Shown here piece after piece: positions 2,160 through 10,876 of a DNA stretch of 36,969 nt; the stretch's first letter is position 1, and every line of letters begins with the position of its first letter. The position numbers and the translations under genes are program-made. This stretch comes from Clostridia bacterium (GTDB lineage: Bacteria; Bacillota; Clostridia; Oscillospirales; Acutalibacteraceae), in NCBI GenBank assembly GCA_017435665.1, contig JAFSEP010000045.1, positions 1 through 36,969 on the forward strand, given 5' to 3'. A model generated the notes under the pieces. The model had not been told where the DNA came from. It did no database searches and was given only the letters and a program-made list of their open reading frames with translations.

Positions 2160-2204
2160 TGGTTGCGGAGACAGGACTTGAACCTGCAACCTCCGGGTTA
2201 TGAG
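2160..2204. repeat. attachment-site direct repeat, left copy (3' fragment of tRNA-fMet)
   Basis: These 45 bp are identical to 10801-10845, which is the 3' part of the intact tRNA-fMet gene: CCA end, T arm, variable loop and the 3' side of the anticodon stem through the anticodon. After 2204 the sequences diverge completely (TGCTGA here, CCCGACG in the tRNA), so this copy is a fragment and not a gene. Such a duplication is the footprint of tyrosine-recombinase integration into a tRNA 3' end. Confidence 0.95.
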
Positions 2205-2312
2205 TGCTGATTTATATGTTTTCGTGAGTTTGCACGAAGTCTCGTAAAGCCTTATTTTACAAAGGTTTTCGGACTTTTGACCTTTCACGGTGTTTCACGA
2301 AATCTCACCGAT

Positions 2313-2401
2313 AAACACCAAAATAAACACCAAATAAACACCAAAATTTTTGCCCCAAATGCTGTAGTTTACTGTGTTTTTGTCACCCTGTAAACACCAA
2401 A
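2313..2401 (+). repeat. AAACACCAAA repeats, left end (probable integrase arm sites)
   Basis: Four identical copies of AAACACCAAA lie at 2313-2322, 2325-2334, 2336-2345 and 2392-2401, all in the same orientation and the first three 11-12 bp apart. The same decamer recurs three times near the other end. Direct repeats inside both ends of an element are typical binding sites for the arm-binding N-terminal domain of tyrosine integrases. The function is inferred from position. Confidence 0.65.
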
Positions 2402-2412
2402 AATATAAAAAT

Positions 2413-2452
2413 GCCTCTGCAAGATTGTTTTCTCTCCTGCAGAGGCTGTTTT
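2413..2452. terminator. bidirectional terminator after the integrase gene
   Basis: GCCTCTGCA (2413-2421) pairs with TGCAGAGGC (2438-2446) around a 16-nt loop. The minus strand continues ATTTTTATATTTTT and the plus strand TGTTTTATTT, so it can end integrase transcripts as well as opposing ones. Both arms are copies of the element's repeated octamer, so here the repeat doubles as a terminator stem. Confidence 0.75.
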
Positions 2453-2569
2453 ATTTGAATAATTTTGAAGAATTTTGAAAAATCCGAGAAATGCAAAAAG
2501 CCTGAAAAGCCTTGTGTTTACTCATAAAATTGCATATTAAAACAGCAAAAATCGCCTGATAGGTTAAAA

Positions 2570-3955
2570 TCAACTTGTTTTCCTGTTTTTGTTCGGGGAA
2601 AGCAGATCCTCAAGCACCTCTGCAGCAGCTTCATCAGCTGAACGTATAGCGTGTGCATATATCCTTGCTGTAGTTGCTGAGTTTGCGTGTCCTAATCTAT
2701 TTGCAACTGTTGTCAGAGGCACACCGTTTGCAATCTGTAACGTTGCATTTGTGTGTCTTAAGCCGTGAATGGTTATGTCCGTCAGATTGTGCTTGAGCTT
2801 AAATTGTCTGAATTGGCTTGTTAAGGCTGTGGGGTTTAATGGCTGTCCGTTCCAACTCGTAAAAAGACGGTTGCTGTTTATCCATTTATCGCCCATTTGC
2901 AGACGTTGTTTATTTTGCCACACTCTATGTTCCCTCAACACCTCAATAACGCTCTGAGGGGCTTTTATAGCTCTCTGAGAGCCGCTTGTTTTGGTTTCAT
3001 CTTCAAACACGCCCTTTTCGGGAAGATAAAGCGAACTGCGATTGATTTGTATAACGGCATTGTCTAAATCAATATCAGACCATTCTAAGCCGAGAAGCTC
3101 ACCCCGGCGCATACCGGTGAACATAAGCACCTGTATCATTGCACTGAACTGTGGGCTTTCCTCTGCAAGATATTCAAGCATTTGCTTTGCCTGCTCTTCA
3201 TCAAGGTATTTTGGCTCAGGTTTTTGCACCTTTGGTGGCTTCACACGGTCACAGGGGTTAGAAAATATAACCTGCCATTGCACAGCTGTTGAGAGAATCG
3301 AAGATATAAAGCCGTGATAATGGTGTACCGTTGCTGATGAAAGCGTTTTGTTTTCCTCTGCAGAGGTAAACAGTTCTTTTAGGGGTATGCAGAGGGCTTC
3401 ACTTATTGCAACGGCCGTCTTTTCACTGACGTTGTTTCCTTTGGCAGCTGTTGAAACTGTACGCTCGCCAATGTGCGCCGCCTCTGCAAGTGAAGCAAAT
3501 GTAAATCCCTTTGCTCTGATAGTTTCTTTCAAATCAATGGCAGAGGTGTATTTTGTATCTTTTCGTATGCCTTCCTCTGCAAGATTATTATAAAATGCTA
3601 TGAGGTGGTGTGGCTGTATTTTTTCAAGGTGTAAATGACCTATAGCCGCATTGGTTCTCGGCAGCATCGATTTATATCTTTCAAGTGTGGTTGCCCTTAA
3701 TTGTTTTTCTGCATAGTCATTAAACCACTTGTCAGCGAACTCAGAGAATCTTATTGAGCCGTCAAGATAAACACCATTTTTTACCTTCTCTTCAAATAAC
3801 AAAGCCTGTCGGTTGACTTCCTTTTCAATCTGCTTCTTTGTCATTGACGGTGCAGGTTTCCACGTCATAGAACGGCGGATTTGTTTCCCGGTGCAATCAT
3901 AGCCGGCAGACACGGTTATTCTGTAAGTGTCATTCCGTTTTGTTATCGTTGCCAT
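2570..3955 (-). CDS. int: tyrosine integrase with an inserted helix-turn-helix domain
   Basis: The product is a 461-aa phage/ICE-type integrase that recombines the tRNA-fMet attachment sites. It has an N-terminal arm-binding domain (about 1-60), a core-binding domain (68-130 and 200-245) and a catalytic domain (250-450). The catalytic set is visible: Arg283 in TGMRRGE, His397 and Arg400 in HGLRH, His423 in LGH, and nucleophile Tyr433 in RIYAHA. Residues about 139-197 form an XRE-like helix-turn-helix (LAEAAHIGERTVS, then a second helix ending IPLKELF) inside the core-binding domain. I recall similar insertions in other clostridial integrases. The start ATG (3953-3955) lies inside the upstream repressor gene, so the two are co-transcribed. 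Six octamer sites lie in the coding region. Confidence 0.95.
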   Translation of the reverse strand: MATITKRNDTYRITVSAGYDCTGKQIRRSMTWKPAPSMTKKQIEKEVNRQALLFEEKVKNGVYLDGSIRFSEFADKWFNDYAEKQLRATTLERYKSMLPRTNAAIGHLHLEKIQPHHLIAFYNNLAEEGIRKDTKYTSAIDLKETIRAKGFTFASLAEAAHIGERTVSTAAKGNNVSEKTAVAISEALCIPLKELFTSAEENKTLSSATVHHYHGFISSILSTAVQWQVIFSNPCDRVKPPKVQKPEPKYLDEEQAKQMLEYLAEESPQFSAMIQVLMFTGMRRGELLGLEWSDIDLDNAVIQINRSSLYLPEKGVFEDETKTSGSQRAIKAPQSVIEVLREHRVWQNKQRLQMGDKWINSNRLFTSWNGQPLNPTALTSQFRQFKLKHNLTDITIHGLRHTNATLQIANGVPLTTVANRLGHANSATTARIYAHAIRSADEAAAEVLEDLLSPNKNRKTS

Positions 3956-4646
3956 GTGTTTTTTTCTCCGTAATTATTATAGCATTAGTAAACTTCTTTC
4001 CAACATAGGACTTCAATTCCTCATAAGATGTTTTTTCGTCTTTTACATATTCGTTTAAAGTGTCTCTAAAACTTTCAAGCATATCATAATACTGCACTCT
4101 TTCATCTTGTTTTAGGGAGTAATACGTTTTAAAATGTTCTTCTAATAAAACCTCAGGATTGTTATCTTCTGCTTTTTTGTCTATTTCACGTAATGTTGAC
4201 ACACTGTTTTTAAGAAGTTTTTTATATTTTGGAGCCTGTAAAATGACACTATCCATAAAACCGTACATTACTAAGAAATTCATAAAATCGAAATCAAAAA
4301 TATTTCTATTATGTTTAGAATTTGCCTCTACAAATTCGTGTAAATATTTTACTGTTTCTTCACTTAGGCCTATATAATCACAAACCGTGCGTATAATTTT
4401 GCCTTCCTCTGTGTCGGTTTTTGCAGAGGTATTTGTTAAGCCTAATAGATATTCTATCGAAACATTCAAAAACTTCGATATTTCTATAAGCTGAGCAAGA
4501 TTGGGCGTTCTTTTACCACTACAGAAATACGAAACGGTGTTATCTGTCACACCGAGAGCTTTTGCAAGTTCTTTTTGTTTAATTTCTCTGATTGCTAAAG
4601 TTTCGTTAATTCTTTGACTGATTATATCTTTTGTTAATTTTTCCAT
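3930..4646 (-). CDS. XRE-family repressor of the element
   Basis: The product is a 238-aa DNA-binding protein. Residues about 10-65 form a Cro/C1-type helix-turn-helix (QKELAKALGVTDNTVSYF) followed by SIEYLLG, the usual end of the XRE domain. The remaining 170 residues are helical and charged and match no family I recognise. The start is taken as the ATG at 4646, seven bases after GAGGTG; the upstream in-frame ATG has no such site. It overlaps int by 26 bp and is divergent from the small gene at 4794. The region between them holds repeated GTTATG/CATAAC half-sites. It is probably the lysogeny-type repressor that controls int, xis and its own gene. Confidence 0.85.
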   Translation of the reverse strand: MEKLTKDIISQRINETLAIREIKQKELAKALGVTDNTVSYFCSGKRTPNLAQLIEISKFLNVSIEYLLGLTNTSAKTDTEEGKIIRTVCDYIGLSEETVKYLHEFVEANSKHNRNIFDFDFMNFLVMYGFMDSVILQAPKYKKLLKNSVSTLREIDKKAEDNNPEVLLEEHFKTYYSLKQDERVQYYDMLESFRDTLNEYVKDEKTSYEELKSYVGKKFTNAIIITEKKTHGNDNKTE

Positions 4647-4660
4647 TTGAAAACACCTCA

Positions 4661-4755
4661 CATAACATTTCGGTTAAGTTTATAAAAAACTTAGCAAAAC
4701 TGTTGACTTTGTATGCATTGTTATGTTAGAATAATACCATAACAAAACAGTTATG
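4661..4755. promoter_or_regulatory. divergent control region with four GTTATG/CATAAC half-sites
   Basis: CATAAC lies at 4661 and 4738, and GTTATG at 4720 and 4750. They form inverted pairs (4720/4738 and 4738/4750). A plus-strand promoter, TTGACT (4703-4708), 18 bp, TAGAAT (4727-4732), is covered by these sites. Binding by the neighbouring XRE repressor would therefore block it. The repressor assignment is inference. Confidence 0.6.
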
Positions 4756-4793
4756 TCAACAAAATCAAGAAAAAATATATAAGAGGTGAAAAA

Positions 4794-4985
4794 ATGTTTA
4801 ATCTTAGCAGAGCAAATAAGGAAATCAGAGAAACAGCGAAAAAGAACGGTGTTTTTATGTATCAAATCGCAGATGCCCTCTGCATTGCAGAAACCCATTT
4901 CTCACGAAAACTGCGATATGAACTCTCGGAAAACGAAAAGAAGCAAGTTCTTGCAATCATTGAAAAGCTCTCAAAGGGGTGTTGA
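4794..4985 (+). CDS. small helix-turn-helix-like protein
   Basis: The 63-aa protein is basic and almost entirely helical. RETAKKNGVFMYQIADALCI followed by THFSRKLR resembles a Cro-type helix-turn-helix in which the recognition helix is THFSRKLR. The start is well supported by AGAGGTG five bases upstream. It is the first gene of the plus-strand operon behind the repressor-controlled promoter and ends three bases before the excisionase-like gene. The likely role is a small transcription regulator or recombination directionality partner. That is inferred from size, fold and position. Confidence 0.75.
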   Translation: MFNLSRANKEIRETAKKNGVFMYQIADALCIAETHFSRKLRYELSENEKKQVLAIIEKLSKGC

Positions 4986-4988
4986 TTT

Positions 4989-5234
4989 GTGTCTATACCA
5001 CGAATGAGAACGCTCCCCGAAGCCTATGACGAATTAAAAAAGCTCGACCCTAACACCGCATACACGCTCAGAGCGTTAAGACGTGCGGTTAATGAAGGGA
5101 AAATCCCTGTTGTCCGTGTGGGCAACAAAAGGCTTATAAACCTTGATAACCTTTTCAATATGCTCAGTAATGCCGATGCAGAGGCTTATTGTACCTCTGC
5201 AGAAGGCAATAAAGGCATACGCAGGGTTGTATGA
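4989..5234 (+). CDS. excisionase-like DNA-binding protein
   Basis: The product is 81 aa and starts at GTG 4989, nine bases after AAAGGGG. Residues 20-58 (AYTLRALRRAVNEGKIPVVR followed by VGNKRLINLDNLFNML) fit the winged-helix MerR/excisionase domain, with helix-turn-helix, wing GNKRLI and a terminal helix. Such proteins bend attachment-site DNA and turn the integrase towards excision. The tail is short, polar and contains two octamer sites in different frames (DAEA and TSAE), so it may be unstructured. It is co-transcribed with the 63-aa gene and opposite to int, as expected when excision is induced by loss of the repressor. Confidence 0.75.
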   Translation: MSIPRMRTLPEAYDELKKLDPNTAYTLRALRRAVNEGKIPVVRVGNKRLINLDNLFNMLSNADAEAYCTSAEGNKGIRRVV

Positions 5235-5261
5235 CGTGCAAAAACAACTGAAAACAATGCT

Positions 5262-5377
5262 GATATAAAGTTTGTTATATCGGTGTGGGAAGTTGTTGTC
5301 ATTTTCAAGGTGAGAGCCTCTGCAAAACTGAATATTAAATGCACCCGGAAAGAAGCGAAAAAATGCCTTTCCGGGTG
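5262..5377. other. hairpin region upstream of rep, candidate replication origin
   Basis: There are two inverted repeats in the 264-bp gap before rep: GATAA-type arms at 5262-5268 and 5275-5281, and a perfect 11-bp stem, CACCCGGAAAG (5342-5352) with CTTTCCGGGTG (5367-5377), around a 14-nt A-rich loop. No U-tract follows, so it is not a typical terminator. HUH Rep proteins nick hairpin loops that often lie next to their own gene. The assignment as origin or nick site is inference. Confidence 0.45.
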
Positions 5378-5498
5378 TGAAAGTCAATGCCTCGTTTGAG
5401 AGGTTAAAACCGTTCATATAGTAATTAACTTAATGAAAAATCGAAGCAGAAAAAGCACAGAGAAATAAAGGAATTTTCAAAAGAAAGGAGTGTGTCTT

Positions 5499-6221
5499 GT
5501 GCCGTACATAAAGCAGACTATCAGAGCCGGTAAAACAATAGAAGTTCACAAGCATTATTCTGCAAGATACGGAAAAGGCACACAAGGCAGAAAAAAGCAC
5601 CAAAACAAGACATCTGAGAAGGCTGCAGAGGTAAACCGACAGCAAGCAATAAAGAAGCTCAGAGGCTTGCTTAACGCTAATTTCGTTGACGGTGATATAC
5701 ACGCTGTTTTCACATACGCAAAAGACAAGCGCCCATCAGACAGTGCAGAGGCCAAAAAGGAATACAGCAAGTTATTAAGAGAGCTTAAAAAGGCTTTTGC
5801 CAAAGCAAACAAAGAGTTTAAATATGTTTCTGCAACTGAATATAAAAACAAGGCTATTCATCATCATTTTGTTTTGCCTAATATTGATGTTAATCTGCTT
5901 CGCAAGGCTTGGAAGAACGGTAAAGTCCTAATAACCGTACTTGACACAGACGGACAATACGGAAACTTGGCTGAATACTTCGTAAAAGAGACGGAAAAAA
6001 CTGCAAAAGAGAGAGACGGACTTTATAAAAAGCGTTGGAACGCAAGTCAGAACTTAACAAAGCCGATTATTATAACGGAGATAATAAATGCAAGAGCGTT
6101 CAGAGCTGAGCCGAAAGCAATTAAAGGTTATCGACTTTGGAAAGAGAAGGGCTGTAATTTCAATTCTGTGGATGAATATGGCTTATTACGGCAAAGTTAC
6201 ATAATGGTTAGGCTTGAATAA
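5499..6221 (+). CDS. rep: rolling-circle replication initiator, HUH endonuclease (G2P-like)
   Basis: The product is 240 aa, starting at GTG 5499, eight bases after AAAGGAG; the in-frame GTG at 5490 overlaps that site. Motif I is DIHAVFTY, motif II is the HUH-type AIHHHFVLPN (His121-123), and motif III is LAEYFVKE with the probable nucleophile Tyr160 and Lys163 (Y-x-x-K). This order matches plasmid and phage Rep proteins that nick one strand and start rolling-circle replication. There is no helicase domain, so the host would supply one. The gene lies downstream of two hairpins that may be its origin. In an element without a recognisable relaxase it may also act in mobilisation. Two octamer sites lie in the coding region. 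Confidence 0.82.
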   Translation: MPYIKQTIRAGKTIEVHKHYSARYGKGTQGRKKHQNKTSEKAAEVNRQQAIKKLRGLLNANFVDGDIHAVFTYAKDKRPSDSAEAKKEYSKLLRELKKAFAKANKEFKYVSATEYKNKAIHHHFVLPNIDVNLLRKAWKNGKVLITVLDTDGQYGNLAEYFVKETEKTAKERDGLYKKRWNASQNLTKPIIITEIINARAFRAEPKAIKGYRLWKEKGCNFNSVDEYGLLRQSYIMVRLE

Positions 6222-6225
6222 AAAT

Positions 6226-6254
6226 AAACCGCCTGAGGCTATTTCAGACGGTTT
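6226..6254 (-). terminator. terminator between rep and the minus-strand operon
   Basis: AAACCGCCTGA (6226-6236) pairs with TCAGACGGTTT (6244-6254) with one mismatch. On the minus strand it is followed by ATTTTTATTC, so it ends the operon that runs from 7583 to 6374. On the plus strand there is no U-tract after the stem. Confidence 0.65.
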
Positions 6255-6294
6255 ACAACACTATAGATTTTCACCCAACAAAACACAACATTCT

Positions 6295-6310
6295 CGCACG
6301 CGTGCGCGTA
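6295..6310. repeat. alternating purine-pyrimidine tract (CG/CA), first
   Basis: Sixteen bases alternate strictly between pyrimidine and purine, and the first twelve, CGCACGCGTGCG, are a perfect palindrome. It is very GC-rich within AT-rich surroundings and lies noncoding, downstream of the 82-aa minus-strand gene. Such tracts favour left-handed Z-DNA under negative supercoiling. Confidence 0.7.
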
Positions 6311-6373
6311 AGACAAAACGAATCCGTGTTAGCGTACTCGGTAGAGAGAAAAGGAAACCTCTGCAGAGGTACA

Positions 6374-6622
6374 TCAACTTGACTTCCGTCTCTGACGTTC
6401 TTCTCTTATTCCCTGTATTCTGCCACCGTTCCAAATGGCAGTAAACAAGCACATTCGATAAAAACGTGAGCTTTCCTTGAGAAATCCAATATATTCTTTA
6501 TCAAATGCCTCTGCAATTTCTAATGCTATTCGTGAATCTGCAGAGGTACGGTACCACATTGATATTTTGATAACTTCTGCAGGCTCGACCAATTTTACAG
6601 GCTTTATACAGCTTCTTTTCAT
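6374..6622 (-). CDS. hypothetical protein, last gene of the minus-strand operon
   Basis: The protein has 82 aa, is basic at both ends (MKRSC, RQRRKSS) and has no family I recognise. The start at ATG 6622 is supported by AAGGGGG eight bases upstream. The middle (ADSRIALEIAEAFDKEYIGF and KESSRFYRMCLFTAIWNGG) is predicted helical. The gene lies between the two CG-rich alternating tracts and ends 120 bp before a minus-strand terminator. Size, charge and place near rep would fit an accessory protein of replication or nicking, but no motif shows this. Confidence 0.65.
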   Translation of the reverse strand: MKRSCIKPVKLVEPAEVIKISMWYRTSADSRIALEIAEAFDKEYIGFLKESSRFYRMCLFTAIWNGGRIQGIREERQRRKSS

Positions 6623-6640
6623 CGTTGTTTCCCCCTTAAC

Positions 6641-6979
6641 CTATGCATTTAGAACCTGACAAAACCTGACCTGCCTCGCGTGCGTGCGCGCGTGTGCGCG
6701 CGAGAACAATATCAGCAGCAATTCGTTTTGTCTATCTATGCTCAGTTCGTCTATGCCGTTTAAATGCTCTCTGAGCCATTGTTTTTCCGTTTTAATCTCT
6801 TCGGCAAGGTTTTTATATATGTATTTTTCAGGGTGCTTTAAACGGTCAATTAAGCGCACATAATGCAACTGAAATTCGCTAAGCGGCACAGTATTGCAAA
6901 ATCTTCCTATAATCAACCTCTTTTCCGGCTCTCCGGGTGTATGGCTTATAATTTCGTAATATGTCATAGATAAAATCAT
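6641..6979 (-). CDS. hypothetical protein with a repeat-encoded His/Ala/Arg tail
   Basis: The protein has 112 aa from ATG 6979, chosen because AGAGG lies five bases upstream; an in-frame start further up at 7120 would overlap the preceding gene. The body is helical (LSEFQLHYVRLIDRLKHPEK) and has no recognised domain. The C-terminal residues SRAHARTHARQVRF are encoded by the 26-nt alternating CG tract at 6677-6702, so the tail reflects DNA composition rather than a known motif. It is the third gene of the operon. Confidence 0.6.
   Translation of the reverse strand: MILSMTYYEIISHTPGEPEKRLIIGRFCNTVPLSEFQLHYVRLIDRLKHPEKYIYKNLAEEIKTEKQWLREHLNGIDELSIDRQNELLLILFSRAHARTHARQVRFCQVLNA
6677..6702. repeat. 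alternating purine-pyrimidine tract, second (26 nt)
   Basis: Twenty-six consecutive bases alternate pyrimidine-purine and consist almost only of CG and TG/CA steps, inside the 3' end of the 112-aa gene. The flanking CTCGCG and CGCGAG can also pair as a hairpin. With the tract at 6295-6310 it brackets the 82-aa gene. Both are candidate Z-DNA segments. Confidence 0.75.
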
Positions 6980-7067
6980 TCCTTCCTCTTGAAAATTCAG
7001 AGCGAATATGTTAAAATATAAATATCCTACTTTCTGCAATTCGTAGGTGAACGTTGCTCTTGTATCT

Positions 7068-7265
7068 TTAAGCGGTAGATACAGGAGCATTTTTCTTTGT
7101 TTCCTCTGCATTAAAGGCAAAATCCGCTATAATCGGGTTTATTTCCTTTAATTCTTCCACAATATCAGCATTTATATTGCCTTCGATAATATCGTCAATG
7201 GCTATATTTGCCTGTATTATGGCTGCAAGCTGTTCAGAGCTTATGTTTACTGTTCGTGTAATCAC
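7068..7265 (-). CDS. small acidic hypothetical protein
   Basis: The protein has 65 aa when begun at GTG 7265, which lies twelve bases after AAAGGAG. An in-frame TTG at 7289 precedes the ribosome binding site and is less likely. The sequence starts MITRTVNISSEQLAAIIQAN and continues with acidic helices (IDDIIEGNINADIVEELKEI). No family is recognised. It is the second gene of the minus-strand operon, with octamer sites at 7103, inside its C-terminal coding region, and at 7302/7313 upstream. Confidence 0.6.
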   Translation of the reverse strand: MITRTVNISSEQLAAIIQANIAIDDIIEGNINADIVEELKEINPIIADFAFNAEETKKNAPVSTA

Positions 7266-7322
7266 TGCCGGTTGTCGCTCCTTTCTCAATATTTTGAACT
7301 GTGCAGAGGTTTCCTCTGCAGA

Positions 7323-7583
7323 TTATGCCGAAACGTTGTGCTTTTTCTCAACCCAATTTTCAATGGTGTTCTTCTGAGCTTCGATTAACGAATGCACGGA
7401 ATATATCAGCGATTCCATTATCGGCGCTCTTTGGCTGAAATATATTGCCTTCCACATTTCGTCTTTGTCAGAGCTTATGTTCTGCAGAGGTGCATCGTCA
7501 AGCTCCTCAAACACTAAACCTAAAAGGTGCAATACTCTTTCAAGCTCAATTCCCATAGTTTCTAAATCGATTGTTTCTTGCAT
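7323..7583 (-). CDS. small hypothetical protein, first gene of the minus-strand operon
   Basis: The protein has 86 aa, is acidic and helical, with no recognised domain. The ATG at 7583 is ten bases after AAAGGAG. A good promoter lies upstream: TTGAAA, 17 bp, TACAAT on the minus strand at 7647-7619. A short section (DEMWKAIYFSQRAPIMESLI) is reminiscent of small phage or ICE proteins that sit beside a Cro-type switch, but I would not name it. It is followed by the 65-, 112- and 82-aa genes in one transcript. Confidence 0.65.
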   Translation of the reverse strand: MQETIDLETMGIELERVLHLLGLVFEELDDAPLQNISSDKDEMWKAIYFSQRAPIMESLIYSVHSLIEAQKNTIENWVEKKHNVSA

Positions 7584-7618
7584 TTGGTTTCATCTCCTTT
7601 CCTTAACCTTGTGAGTAT

Positions 7619-7725
7619 ATTGTACACTAAATTCGTGTGTATTTCAATATGCATTATGCACAATATTTTAGTGTATAATTTGTTAAGTTTGTACACTTGA
7701 CAGAGGTGTATATAAGTGATATAAT
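7619..7725. promoter_or_regulatory. divergent promoters with operator-like repeats
   Basis: The plus-strand promoter is a perfect consensus: TTGACA (7697-7702), 17 bp, TATAAT (7720-7725). It drives the 70-aa regulator. The minus-strand promoter is TTGAAA (complement of 7642-7647), 17 bp, TACAAT (complement of 7619-7624). TACACTAAA (7623-7631) and TTTAGTGTA (7667-7675) are inverted copies, and GTACACTT recurs at 7691. The first copy overlaps the minus -10 box. This looks like a Cro-type switch bound by the 70-aa protein. Confidence 0.75.
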
Positions 7726-7765
7726 GTTACCGTAATGAAGAACAAATATATTTTGAGGTGAAATT

Positions 7766-7978
7766 ATGCCAATAGTTTACAAAATTGATGTATTATCTGC
7801 ATTAAAAGCAGCAGGGTACTCAACATATCGGATAAGGAAAGAACGTCTTTTAGGTGAAGCAACTCTACAGAAGATACGAAACAATGAGCCTGTATCGTGG
7901 GAAAATATCTCAACAATATGCAAACTTCTTAATTGCCAACCGGGTGACATAATGGAGTATGTTGAAGATGAAGGTTAA
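7766..7978 (+). CDS. Cro/C1-type helix-turn-helix regulator
   Basis: The 70-aa protein is essentially one XRE helix-turn-helix domain of the YozG type: AAGYSTYRIRKERLLGEATL is the helix-turn-helix, followed by SWENISTICKLLNCQPGDIM, the typical end of the fold, and YVEDEG. The start ATG is supported by GAGGTG. It is transcribed from a consensus promoter and faces away from the four-gene operon, with shared inverted repeats between them. It probably represses both promoters. A 12-bp octamer palindrome begins two bases after its stop, and a terminator follows. Confidence 0.88.
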   Translation: MPIVYKIDVLSALKAAGYSTYRIRKERLLGEATLQKIRNNEPVSWENISTICKLLNCQPGDIMEYVEDEG

Positions 7979-8017
7979 GCCTCTGCAGAGGATAATATAT
8001 TAAACACAAAGCAAAAC

Positions 8018-8056
8018 CCCGAAAGAGCGTTGCTGCGCTTTTTTCGGGATTTTTTG
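8018..8056 (+). terminator. terminator after the Cro-like gene
   Basis: CCCGAAAGAGCG pairs with CGCTTTTTTCGGG (small bulge) around a short loop and is followed by ATTTTTTG. This is a typical intrinsic terminator 40 bp after the regulator stop codon. Confidence 0.85.
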
Positions 8057-8104
8057 ATAGTTTTAGATAATCAGCAATCGTCAGATAAAAAAACACCTCA
8101 CGTC

Positions 8105-8284
8105 TTATAATTTTTTATATTCTTCCAAATGAGCTGAGTAATATGCTGACATTGTGATGCTCAGTCGCTCTCTCATCCTTTCTTCCATTGCTTTGCGTTC
8201 CTCTGCAGTCAGCTCTGAAAGCGATACGGTTGAACCGTCTTTCCTGATAACATAACAGCTTCCTGTATATTTATTTTTTGCCAC
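8105..8284 (-). CDS. small conserved-type protein of integrative elements (59 aa)
   Basis: This short gene starts at GTG 8284, six bases after GAGGTG, and stops with TAA at 8107-8105. The product begins MAKNKYTGSCYVIRKDGSTV and continues with LSELTAEERKAMEERMRERL and a C-terminal EEYKKL. I recall similar 55-65-aa proteins in many clostridial conjugative and mobilisable elements; their function is not known to me. The start overlaps the end of the excisionase-like gene upstream by 14 bp in another frame, so the two are translated together. One octamer site lies at 8200. Confidence 0.8.
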   Translation of the reverse strand: MAKNKYTGSCYVIRKDGSTVSLSELTAEERKAMEERMRERLSITMSAYYSAHLEEYKKL

Positions 8285-8504
8285 CTATATCACCTCGGTT
8301 TACGTTTTGTTGATTAAACATTTCTCTTATTGCCTGTTTTTCCACACGCCATTCATCAACTACCTTGACTGCAGGTATCTTACCTGCTCTCGCCCATTTT
8401 TGAGCTGTATCGTGCGTGATGTCTAACAATATTGCCACCTGTGATAAGGTGAGAAGAACGGGAAGTTCATCCCAATCACGATAATAAATTATTTTCTTTT
8501 TCAT
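8271..8504 (-). CDS. excisionase-family helix-turn-helix protein
   Basis: The product is 77 aa from ATG 8504; a GTG at 8510 (five bases after AAGGAGG) is an equally possible start and would add two residues. LLTLSQVAILLDITHDTAQK, then WARAGKIPAVKVVDEWRVEK is the standard excisionase/MerR-type domain, with WARAGKIPAVKV and a WRV wing. This is the second excisionase-like protein of the element, transcribed opposite to the first one. The start region lies 34-bp from a 20-bp perfect palindrome at 8538-8557 that may be its operator. A role as recombination directionality factor or as regulator cannot be separated by sequence. Confidence 0.82.
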   Translation of the reverse strand: MKKKIIYYRDWDELPVLLTLSQVAILLDITHDTAQKWARAGKIPAVKVVDEWRVEKQAIREMFNQQNVNRGDIGGKK

Positions 8505-8537
8505 GAGCACATAGTCCTCCTTGATATTATTTTTGTT

Positions 8538-8557
8538 CAATAATAACTTTATTATTG
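8538..8557. promoter_or_regulatory. 20-bp palindrome upstream of the excisionase-like gene
   Basis: CAATAATAA and TTATTATTG are perfect inverted arms separated by CT. The palindrome lies just upstream of the ribosome binding site of the minus-strand gene and is a candidate operator. Confidence 0.5.
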
Positions 8558-8654
8558 ACAAATGGCATTATAATCAATTAAAATAGGTGGTGCAAAGTAC
8601 AAAGTATGGAAAAATAGTTTATTTGCAGAGGATAACGTTAGAAATAGTGTTTTA

Positions 8655-8731
8655 TCAGTGTTTGGCAGATTTTGGCAGATTTTAACCGAGTTTAACAATG
8701 TTGCACAAAATTACAGCAGCAACTTTGTGCA
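8655..8731. repeat. noncoding repeats before the RNA-nuclease module
   Basis: The segment holds two tandem TTTGGCAGAT units, then a TTTAAC repeat around CCGAG, and an 8-bp inverted repeat, TGCACAAA (8702-8709) with TTTGTGCA (8724-8731). No reading frame covers it. It could be a regulatory or origin segment; nothing specific supports either. Confidence 0.4.
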
Positions 8732-8740
8732 GTATTGATA

Positions 8741-8769
8741 TGGAAAAAAGATGATTTTTCGCGTATAAT
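8741..8769 (+). promoter_or_regulatory. promoter for the pseudoknotted leader
   Basis: TGGAAA (8741-8746), 17 bp, TATAAT (8764-8769). The -35 matches only four of six bases, while the -10 is perfect. A start near 8776 would put the 5' end of the RNA exactly at its first paired segment. Confidence 0.55.
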
Positions 8770-8775
8770 ATAGAT

Positions 8776-8955
8776 GAAGATAAGCACCACTATCGCCAAT
8801 CTTCACGGTGCCTATGAAACGATACGCCTTGCTGAGGTGGTGTGCGTTGAGGCTCTGGTAGGGTTTGTACATTGAGCCTGTTCTCGGCTATGACTGAAGT
8901 CAAAAAAATGTACGTTTATTGAAAATATAGGCACTTCGTTATCGGAGTGCCTATA
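8776..8955 (+). ncRNA. candidate structured RNA with two pseudoknots
   Basis: About 180 nt of noncoding DNA separate a promoter from the nuclease gene. Pseudoknot 1: GAAGAT (8776-8781) pairs with ATCTTC (8799-8804), and GCACC in its loop (8784-8788) pairs with GGTGC (8807-8811). Pseudoknot 2: AGGCTC (8850-8855) pairs with GAGCCT (8874-8879), and GTACATT in its loop (8867-8873) pairs with AATGTAC (8907-8913). A perfect 9-bp stem extended by three inner pairs (8927-8938 with 8943-8954) closes the region 19 bp before the nuclease start. It is richer in GC than the gene that follows. It may be an antitoxin RNA or a cis-acting leader; I do not recognise a known RNA family. Confidence 0.55.
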
Positions 8956-8973
8956 AATGTTTATGGAGTTAAA

Positions 8974-9543
8974 ATGAAGGATATTAAAGAGTGTGCAGAG
9001 TTTTATAAGTCATTCTTAAACAAAGACTATATATTTACTCTCGAAGGTGATATTAAGTTTAAAATTTTCTTTGTCAAAGGTAATTTTCATCATTTGCTTG
9101 GATTAGGTAAACTTAAAGACATTGAAGAATTAAACATAGAAAAAAATAAAGCCGATAAAATTTACAAGGACATTCTGTCAGGAGATATTTCTATCGAGAA
9201 AATTGAAAATAGCGTATTTTATTACAAGATACTGAATAGAGTAGAAAACTTTCAAAATATAACGGATTTGCTTGATATAGACAAATGCAAAATCATTATA
9301 GATTTTGACAGAAACCTTTTAGATGACACAAACCTTATAAACACCAAATACATACTCTTTAAACATAAAAATGACGGTTATATACATCTGACTTTAGGGG
9401 ATAAGGGAAAAGGTATTTATCCTGAAACTTTCTTTTATGAAGGCAGCAAAAGATATATAACTGAGCAAGTGTTGTTAGACATCATAGACATAGAGATTGT
9501 TACTCATGCTAAGAAAAAGAAAGAGCTAATAACCTCTGCATAG
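8974..9543 (+). CDS. BECR-fold nuclease, PBECR4-like
   Basis: The product has 189 aa from ATG 8974, preceded at five bases by GGAG; an upstream in-frame GTG at 8947 lies within the hairpin and is unlikely. Motifs match my memory of the phage Barnase-EndoU-ColicinE5/D-RelE-like family 4: KIFFVKGNFHHLLGLGKLKD, KIYKDILSG, NRVENF, then YIHLTL and YPETFFYE near the C-terminus. Proteins of this superfamily are metal-independent ribonucleases, often toxins or polymorphic-toxin domains. The gene is much more AT-rich than its neighbours and contains no octamer until its last codons (TSA-stop at 9533). With the structured leader upstream and a terminator downstream it forms a self-contained module. The enzymatic role is inferred from family resemblance. 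Confidence 0.68.
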   Translation: MKDIKECAEFYKSFLNKDYIFTLEGDIKFKIFFVKGNFHHLLGLGKLKDIEELNIEKNKADKIYKDILSGDISIEKIENSVFYYKILNRVENFQNITDLLDIDKCKIIIDFDRNLLDDTNLINTKYILFKHKNDGYIHLTLGDKGKGIYPETFFYEGSKRYITEQVLLDIIDIEIVTHAKKKKELITSA

Positions 9544-9582
9544 TAAGTCTCTCACCATAGGAGAAGTGCTGAAATGCAGAGC

Positions 9583-9613
9583 AGGTGTCTAATGCCGGCT
9601 AATGTTGACACCT
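9583..9613. repeat. 7-bp inverted repeat with internal direct repeat
   Basis: AGGTGTC (9583-9589) and GACACCT (9607-9613) are inverted, and CTAATG occurs twice between them around a CCGG. It is noncoding, between the nuclease gene and its terminator. The function is unknown. Confidence 0.35.
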
Positions 9614-9623
9614 AACATAAAAC

Positions 9624-9659
9624 AAACCGCTTACCTTATTGCAGAGGTAGGCGGTTTTT
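9624..9659 (+). terminator. terminator after the nuclease gene
   Basis: AAACCGC-TACC pairs with GGTA-GCGGTTT (one bulged mismatch) and is followed by TTTTTG. An octamer copy lies in the loop and the descending arm. Confidence 0.8.
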
Positions 9660-9778
9660 GCTTGTTTGAGCCTCTGCAAGCAACATAAAAAGAAAACGAT
9701 TAACTTTGTGTTTGTAAGATAAAAACACGGATTTACCCCTAAATCCACAAAAATATCAACATTCTGAGGTGTGAGAAA

Positions 9779-10657
9779 ATGACTAATGAAGAAATAATTA
9801 GAGAATTGCAGAGGAACGGCGCATCTGAAAGGCTTATGTCCGAACTGTACAACCAAAACAGAGGTATCATTTACAAAGCGGCTAAAAAGTTTCAGCAAAG
9901 TGCCGATATTGAAGATTTGATGCAAGAGGCATATATAGCATTGGATAGAGCTGTGAAGTGTTATGATTTAGAAAGCGGCTATAAATTCAACACATATCTT
10001 TATCAGGCTTTGATATTTCACTTTGTTTCATACATAGCAACTGCAAGCACATCAATCAGAGTACCCGGACAAGCATATAGCGAAATACTGAAATATAACC
10101 GGCTACAAAAAGAATACCTCTGCAATTATGACCGTGAGCCAACTGCAGAGGAATATAAAAAGGTGTATGGTTGGGATAACGCAAAGTATGAGCTTATTAA
10201 GAATACTTCACGCATACTCAAAACCGTTTCTCTTTATGCGCCATTGAAAACCGATGAAGATTGTACCCTTGCGGACACTATAAAAGATACTTATTGCTTT
10301 GAGGATGATATTGCAGAGGTGGCCGAAAGGGAATATCAGATAAATATTATTCGCAAAGCTGTTGACCGTTTAAGCGATAGCGAGCAGACAATTATCAAAA
10401 AATACTATTTTGAGGGGTTAAACCAAAAGGAAATAGCTGAAATCATAGGAATACCACATCAATTTGTTGCTACAAAGAAGTCCTCTGCAATGCGGCATCT
10501 GAAAGCCGATAAAGATATACGCTGTTTGTATGCATCTTATGAACGGTACGACAGCAAAGCTGCATATCATTACTCAATGCAGAGGTACAACGAAACGTGG
10601 CTTTCATCAGTGGAGTTTATTGCAGAACGTAATATGCTCGACAGCGTGGGTGCATAA
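9779..10657 (+). CDS. sigma-70-family sigma factor carried by the element
   Basis: The product is 292 aa, starting at ATG 9779, seven bases after GAGGTG. Region 2 spans about residues 24-85 (NRGIIYKAAKKF, ADIEDLMQEAYIALDRAV, YKFNTYLYQAL), including the core-RNA-polymerase-binding and -10-recognition helices. Region 3 follows, and region 4 lies at about 199-245 (LSDSEQTIIKKYYFEGLNQK, EIAEIIGIPHQFVATKKSSA), the -35-binding helix-turn-helix. The last 40 residues are unusual and have no known role. The protein would direct host RNA polymerase to promoters unlike the consensus ones seen elsewhere in the element. Five octamer sites occur in the gene in three reading frames (LQR, YLC, TAE/IAE, SSA, MQR). 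Confidence 0.9.
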   Translation: MTNEEIIRELQRNGASERLMSELYNQNRGIIYKAAKKFQQSADIEDLMQEAYIALDRAVKCYDLESGYKFNTYLYQALIFHFVSYIATASTSIRVPGQAYSEILKYNRLQKEYLCNYDREPTAEEYKKVYGWDNAKYELIKNTSRILKTVSLYAPLKTDEDCTLADTIKDTYCFEDDIAEVAEREYQINIIRKAVDRLSDSEQTIIKKYYFEGLNQKEIAEIIGIPHQFVATKKSSAMRHLKADKDIRCLYASYERYDSKAAYHYSMQRYNETWLSSVEFIAERNMLDSVGA

Positions 10658-10687
10658 CCCTCTTGCTATCTCAATAAATGAGCACCA

Positions 10688-10730
10688 AAACACCAAAAAT
10701 TTAAGCAATAAACACCAAATAAACACCAAA
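10688..10730 (+). repeat. AAACACCAAA repeats, right end (probable integrase arm sites)
   Basis: Three exact copies lie at 10688-10697, 10710-10719 and 10721-10730, in the same orientation as the four at the left end, with a partial copy at about 10681. Their place about 70-115 bp inside the attachment repeat mirrors the left end. Confidence 0.65.
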
Positions 10731-10763
10731 ACCAATGTTCAGGCACTTGAGAACAAAAAAATA

Positions 10764-10800: not shown

Positions 10801-10876
<76 letters not shown>

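Follow-up and report, generated by a model that had tools for sequence, protein, structure and literature searches.

An octamer iterated within one integrative element

Why would a small integrative element repeat one octamer dozens of times, on both strands and within genes as well as between them? In this study, we analyzed this question for a stretch of 36,969 bp (hereafter the window; contig JAFSEP010000045.1, positions 1 to 36,969, assembly GCA_017435665.1) from the genome of a Clostridia bacterium of the family Acutalibacteraceae (G000), in which an element of 8,686 bp, flanked by 45-bp exact direct repeats, carries the word TGCAGAGG in large numbers. Sequence comparison indicated that TGCAGAGG is probably the Chi of the host AddAB helicase-nuclease, accumulated by the element in both orientations; its action as Chi is what we infer here.

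The window contains 41 exact matches of TGCAGAGG on both strands. Thirty-seven of them, the proposed Chi sites, lie within 2414..10585 (18 on the plus and 19 on the minus strand), with a mean spacing of 227 bp; over the whole element, the density is 4.3 per kb and the observed/expected ratio (O/E) about 57. None was found to the left of the element and four to the right (12756, 20160, 35675 and 36086), the same numbers as in a preliminary description of this DNA. Its count of 34 sites (15, 16 and three palindromes) was also exact, the 37 matches including three overlapping pairs, each of which forms a 12-bp palindromic double site, CCTCTGCAGAGG (3355..3366, 6358-6369 and 7980-7991).

Several null models were applied. 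A second-order Markov model predicted 0.65 copies in the element, in agreement with the earlier estimate of fewer than one; dinucleotide shuffles of the whole window (n = 100) gave a mean of 1.17 and a largest value of 5, and codon shuffles (n = 300) a mean of 2.11 and a maximum of 6. When all 8-mers were counted in codon shuffles of the element, a check proposed in the preliminary description, the top count of any word was always 14 or less. Based on 14 open reading frames (ORFs), 25 of the 37 sites were located inside ORFs (sense2, 12; anti1, 6; sense1, 3; anti2, 3; anti0, 1), occupying five of the six reading frames, and the other 12 were outside ORFs or spanned an ORF edge. Single-mismatch variants of TGCAGAGG occurred in the element at chance level (9 vs 9.5 expected); a decaying repeat is thus dismissed as the origin of the copies, and the reader of the word is strict. 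The array is therefore selected at the DNA level and results neither from chance nor from coding, as had been argued from its use of several frames.

Inverted pairs of TGCAGAGG, 11-31 bp apart and capable of forming hairpins, were observed at 5177-5201, 7302-7320, 9640-9678 and 2414-2445. The pair at 2414..2445 lies 3' of the integrase gene, is followed by T-rich sequence on the minus strand and may serve as a terminator. Three other loci (L098, L111 and L114) likewise had their own words arranged as inverted pairs a short distance apart.

The preliminary description had considered the octamer to be confined to the element. Concentrated there it is, at about one copy per 230 bp, but the whole genome holds 278 copies, 237 of which lie outside the window in about 2.2 Mb (about one per 9 kb). 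Of 90 copies in sampled host DNA, 64 occupied a single codon frame, as a GCA-GAG codon pair, and copies in G000 favored the G-rich strand (28:4). One host sample (L031-L042) was drawn from octamer-rich contigs and is hence biased, and another was chosen regardless of matches. A host-wide word as the full story was rejected on the basis of genome density, codon frame and an enrichment in genes that was matched by a control word.

Related elements carry words of their own

Homologues of the replication initiator (Rep) of the element were found in 36 of 300 genomes of the family, and homologues of its integrase, at E values of 1e-60 or lower, in 39 of 394 genomes of the order, the window's genome being included in both counts. 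From the scan of genome contigs, the 80 top-scoring of 326 related loci were retained, and the viral scan contributed 59 loci; no close relatives of Rep or of the element's sigma factor were found in viral contigs. No relative had an array of TGCAGAGG, with at most four copies in each of 98 related integrase regions and in each of 60 other regions examined. Lack of the octamer in relatives had been named beforehand as a result that would refute the earlier interpretation, and taken literally this lack was observed. However, 26 of 77 integrase regions carried an iterated word of their own, which points to a more general phenomenon.

In motif scoring, 77 of 99 integrase regions were kept, namely those of 5 kb or more, among them the window element and two regions added later (L396 and L397), and 87 host windows of 9.75 kb, scored identically, were used as control. 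About a third of the relatives carried a dense octamer, such as ATGAGGGC, CGAGCGGG, TGAGCGGC, CGAAGCGG and others. Fourteen of the 77 regions scored above the best host window, with their copies distributed 126:132 over the two strands, and the 26 mentioned above exceeded the host 95th percentile. The top word contained AGCGG in 13 of these 26 regions vs none of the 87 host windows, and L211 had an additional overlapping AGCGGCAC. AGCGG is the Chi of Bacillus subtilis AddAB (PMC4824097), and the window's own core, AGAGG, is one base away. Unlike B. subtilis Chi, the words found here behave as 7-8-mers.

In contrast with the small elements, whose words are strand-neutral, some prophage-like or Rep-bearing regions (L056, L334, L052, L055 and L060) had all or almost all copies of an iterated word on the same strand. 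Words of such regions that were entirely on one strand included CGGAGCGG (11/11), GCAGCGGG (17/17) and GGAAGCGG (9/9).

The word largely follows the host clade

Comparison of these regions suggested that the word largely follows the host clade rather than the genes of the element, with exceptions. ATGAGGGC was common to L135 (host G666), which has a Rep, and L138 (host G680), in which no Rep was found; L135 to L138 were assigned to G666, G681, G679 and G680, all from the window's genus, via identical AddB coordinates. Similarly, CGAGCGGG was common to records of Agathobaculum, Intestinibacillus and Butyricicoccus. Terminase-bearing contigs of the window's genus also showed such words: G003:C28, with a shorter integrase, had ATGAGGGC at 12:0 (0.58 expected), and G289:C49, with no integrase listed, had TGAGGGC at 19:1 (1.66 expected), the signal in G289:C32 being weaker (0:6 vs 1.33 expected). 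In the genome G655, 87 of 100 listed ATGAGGGC sites were on the majority strand of their contig vs 75 of 100 for TGCAGAGG.

AddB as the candidate reader

An AddB homologue was detected in G000 (TIGR02773, E 1.8e-210, below the curated cut-off), as well as in 13 of 13 G hosts, 34 of 34 genomes of the genus and 27 of 28 genomes or records holding the loci; the one miss was a virus record, and every bacterial genome examined had a homologue. No homologue scored above the curated cut-off, and the presence of the helicase-nuclease was judged by AddB, the only subunit searched.

In a set of 35 hosts, residue 41 of AddB (numbered along 3u44_B) was K or R in all eight hosts with AGGGC-type words, whereas each of the 27 remaining hosts had D, E or S there (Fisher 4e-8). 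G000 belongs to the same genus as the AGGGC hosts and groups with the others, having E41 and an element core of AGAGG. Among 30 AddB proteins of this genus, 27 had K/R at residue 41 and three had E (G000, G673 and G674). It is chemically plausible that an acid at this position faces the amino-bearing C or A and a base faces G, and we infer that residue 41 may read base 3 of Chi. F68 and F210 are known Chi-binding residues (PMC4824097). Motif specificity appears to change with the reader protein as a correlation, in which residue 41 is one of four among 1104 AddB columns that fully separate the two groups. The other three, columns 235, 786 and 854, separate them as cleanly, and the first of these is located in the Walker A loop.

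Predictions for elements of the genus covered three regions, all of which are reported here, and two predictions of ATGAGGGC were confirmed. G660, whose R41 had already been read, carried ATGAGGGC 21 times (11/10) in 9 kb vs 0.15 expected, and G669, whose R41 was read afterwards, carried it eight times in 6.1 kb vs 0.12 expected. The sole integrase region of G674 (E41; 12 kb) showed no iterated word; the match there was to a 360-aa integrase, which allows few conclusions.

The 35-host set excluded L189 (partial AddB), L166 (top motif resembling an attachment repeat), G504 and G351 (no motif called), L221 (virus record, no AddB) and L167 (AddB N-terminus missing), as well as L153, L155 and L159, which are the same genomes as G645, G148 and G366. 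The label ACAGCGG for G219 and G127 is based on seven regions in which 7-mers were in excess by about 2- to 7-fold. A replacement of R by S or K at residue 70 accompanied odd motifs in four of four hosts vs one of 31. This link was given little weight: three of its motifs are GGCGG- or CCGG-rich, and such words also top a host window. The word of L111 was raised in its own host G582 (34 vs 13.1), and it is doubtful whether L111, L210 and L207 are elements of the same kind.

Ends and genes of the element

The integrase, the attachment (att) repeats and a tRNA target identify the region as an integrative element. attL (2160..2204) is 100% identical to attR (10801..10845), the latter lying within the tRNA-Met(cat) gene used as integration site (10801..10876, minus strand). 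Repeats of AAACACCAA at the left (2311..2403) and right (10680..10735) ends are probable arm-type sites of the integrase. The tyrosine integrase (2570..3955, minus; PF00589 and PF14659) has an unusual architecture, with a CI-repressor-type helix-turn-helix (HTH; PF07022, residues 149-201) inserted between the core-binding and catalytic domains; the insert aligned in 14 of 14 sequences.

A CI-like repressor (3930..4661, minus; Pfam and PHROGs) is followed on the plus strand by a 63-aa protein present in several relatives (4794..4985), a small HTH protein also found in several relatives and excisionase-like by position (4989..5234; a weak HTH_17 match below the cut-off and no PHROG match) and a G2P/ORF2-type Rep (5490..6221; PF23343, phrog_3584 E 3.4e-54). 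Further to the right are a small protein that is Cro-like by eye only and 81% identical in a relative, L057 (7766..7978, plus), an HTH_17/excisionase-like DNA-binding protein (8271..8561, minus; Pfam and PHROGs), a PBECR4 nuclease-like protein (8947..9543, plus; PF18813 E 5e-21) and a phage-type sigma-70-like factor (9779..10657, plus; phrog_351 E 1.4e-37). In nine element proteins scanned by Pfam and ten by PHROGs, a set from which other small ORFs were left out, no capsid, packaging, transfer, interference, recombinase, methylase or RecBCD/AddAB inhibitor gene was recognised. A large serine recombinase (307-2037, plus) adjoins attL on the left, near the contig start, in a stretch without TGCAGAGG.

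Phage-inducible chromosomal islands are small, tRNA-integrated elements with an integrase, a divergent repressor, an excisionase-like gene and a replication initiator. The element shares this layout, whereas none of its scanned proteins was recognised as serving packaging or interference, and no helper phage is known.

Accumulation of host Chi as the proposed explanation

The mechanism that we propose would operate as follows. AddAB loads onto free double-stranded ends, such as those present after entry, on rolling-circle tails or on broken circles, and degrades the DNA up to a Chi, where its activity is attenuated and a 3' strand remains for RecA. With sites in both orientations, it could be switched off from either end. 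For the putative octameric Chi of Caulobacter AddAB, GCGGTGGT, a recognition probability of about 0.23 is given in PMC5443536. In a model with this value and with entry at the att ends (real ends may differ), 18 or 19 oriented sites would all be missed in less than 1% of passes, and the average distance from either att end to the point of arrest would be about 1.4 kb. Were sites present only in the numbers expected by chance, the enzyme would in most cases run through the element, leaving it unprotected. Protection from AddAB may be the benefit of the array. Such accumulation would explain placement on both strands, disregard for genes, host-clade specificity and covariation with AddB.

A precedent comes from lambdoid phages. 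According to Bobay, Touchon and Rocha (2013; PMC3784561), Chi is in excess in those lacking recombinases, with a median O/E of 3.12 and a density of 0.2 per kb, and in places reaches about three times its density in the Escherichia coli core genome. The likeness is that mobile DNA dependent on host recombination is enriched in host Chi, the gain proposed there being recruitment of RecBCD or protection against it. In contrast with these phage-sized genomes and RecBCD hosts, the element described here is much smaller, denser in its word and strand-neutral, with a clade-variable word and an AddAB host, and its Chi function is proposed. As to recombinases in the regions compared here, none was seen in the families listed for motif-rich and motif-poor regions (first 25 of 70 and 25 of 103). 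Chi enrichment in mobile DNA is therefore of a known kind, but the open literature that we searched described neither enrichment of this degree nor octamers that are iterated in elements of this type and differ between clades, and it listed no Chi for these bacteria.

Several observations weigh against this explanation. First, tested host chromosomes were at most mildly enriched in their own word, without a clear excess of Chi: among the genes of G000, TGCAGAGG occurred 27 times vs 11.9 in codon shuffles, and a neighbour word, TGCAAAGG, was as enriched (37 vs 17.7); CGAGCGGG occurred 4 times vs 5.4 expected in G600 genes and 3 vs 3.4 in G645 and G366 together (coding strand), and TGAGCGGC once vs 0.6 in G148. 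Second, terminase-bearing regions of CGAGCGGG hosts had no excess of this word (G600, 4 vs 3.0; G645, 2 vs 2.6; G504, 1 vs 0.5), which counts against a purely host-set rule, and a second element of G645 with the same integrase (L096) had only three copies in 19 kb. Third, 51 of the 77 integrase regions were below the host 95th percentile, and several AGCGG labels were weak motif calls with 6-9 copies (L176, L187, L183, L175, L158, L157 and L170). Fourth, the strictness of the word is not general among relatives: single-mismatch neighbours were raised about 2-3-fold in L154 (22 vs 8.7), L173 (21 vs 7.4), L135 (12 vs 6.2) and L149 (26 vs 14.4), and were not raised in L167, L152, L138 and L396. 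Finally, the AGGGC hosts all belong to a single genus, so that the AddB covariation rests on few independent changes, and G000 combines a canonical pocket (E41, R70) with the core AGAGG. The lack of clear enrichment in host chromosomes, the phage-like regions of some hosts without the word and AGAGG with an otherwise canonical pocket are so far left unexplained by accumulation of host Chi.

Alternative explanations

The preliminary description had suggested other roles for the octamer, namely a site for an element-encoded protein, a packaging or uptake tag, a methylation signal, silencing or partition. These are less supported than Chi in view of the evidence from host clades, AddB and AGCGG.

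The alternative that survives best, though we regard it as unlikely, is that a DNA-binding protein of the element (repressor, small HTH protein or Rep) coats or partitions it via the octamer, each family having its own pair of protein and site. Concentration of the word in the element and its variation between elements would be expected, and the terminase regions without CGAGCGGG excess fit an element-specific reader. Moreover, all 10 regions with a G2P-type Rep (of 97) were within the top 28 by motif score, and cI-like genes were commoner in motif-rich than in motif-poor regions (20/21 vs 18/34). However, most motif-rich regions lacked such a Rep, and a link of the word to it was rejected; primase, DnaC- and DnaD-like families were found among 62 proteins of motif-rich regions. 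Of the 45 largest protein clusters listed, none combined presence in every motif-rich region with absence from the motif-poor ones, and elements with different replication genes shared a word when they shared a host genus, as did the terminase contigs G003:C28 and G289:C49. The recurring AGCGG core is also unexplained by a protein of the element.

Somewhat less credible still is a tag for entry or packaging, with a helper phage or a host uptake machine preferring octamer-rich DNA. DNA uptake sequences, uptake signal sequences and HIP1 are short words that fill the whole host genome, scattered without preference for a strand and in some cases paired as hairpins. The element word is similarly short, dispersed through coding DNA and strand-neutral, with hairpin pairs after genes, but it is dense in mobile elements only, and the 237 copies of TGCAGAGG in about 2.2 Mb outside the window are far from the saturation of a host genome typical of uptake sequences; the other host chromosomes tested were not loaded with their words either. 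The scanned element proteins included no recognised transfer or packaging gene, which is consistent with such a tag. None of 93 viral stretches with a close inverted TGCAGAGG pair was dense in the word (among those with more than two copies, the densest had four in 5 kb), and neither the AGCGG core nor the covariation with AddB would be accounted for by a tag.

A methylation or restriction-modification signal is very improbable. Restriction pressure on the host is likely: in a G000 sample (L031-L042, L274-L293 and window 10877-36969), the non-palindromic hexamer CCGCTC/GAGCGG was strongly avoided (5 vs about 100 expected), as were CATG, GATC, CCGG, GGCC and CGCG, and these avoided words make several restriction systems likely. 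CCGCTC/GAGCGG is absent from the element in either orientation, and CGAGCGGG from the whole of G000. However, restriction selects for the loss of sites and not their gain, TGCAGAGG is not avoided in the host, and the scanned proteins offered no methylase.

The absence of any function, with codon usage (compare the prevailing GCA-GAG frame of host copies), mutation bias or spread of a short repeat as the source, is scarcely conceivable and as a full explanation is excluded by the codon shuffles and the single-mismatch counts, the 12 sites outside ORFs or across their edges adding to the case.

Implications for AddAB and its targets

Returning to Chi, we lean slightly towards a broader view, in which the Chi of AddAB in gut and rumen Clostridia would have diversified at about the genus scale via the AddB scanner (acidic residue 41, AG[C/A]GG; basic, AGGGC), and small elements and some prophages would carry dense Chi of their current host. 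On this view, the host range of an element could be read from its octamer as from a barcode, and the array would directly document how AddAB, as a defence against elements, has exerted selection.

To our knowledge, Chi sequences have been established for few bacteria, partly because chromosomes show Chi faintly. If small elements accumulate Chi at about 20 times the density of Chi-rich phages, they would allow the Chi of uncultured hosts to be read from sequence. If the pairs of AddB and motif are real, they would represent a first recognition code, testable by swaps of single residues. Degradation of the AddAB type would also be strong enough to shape the whole sequence of an element, coding DNA included, and the host range of such elements may be limited by Chi.

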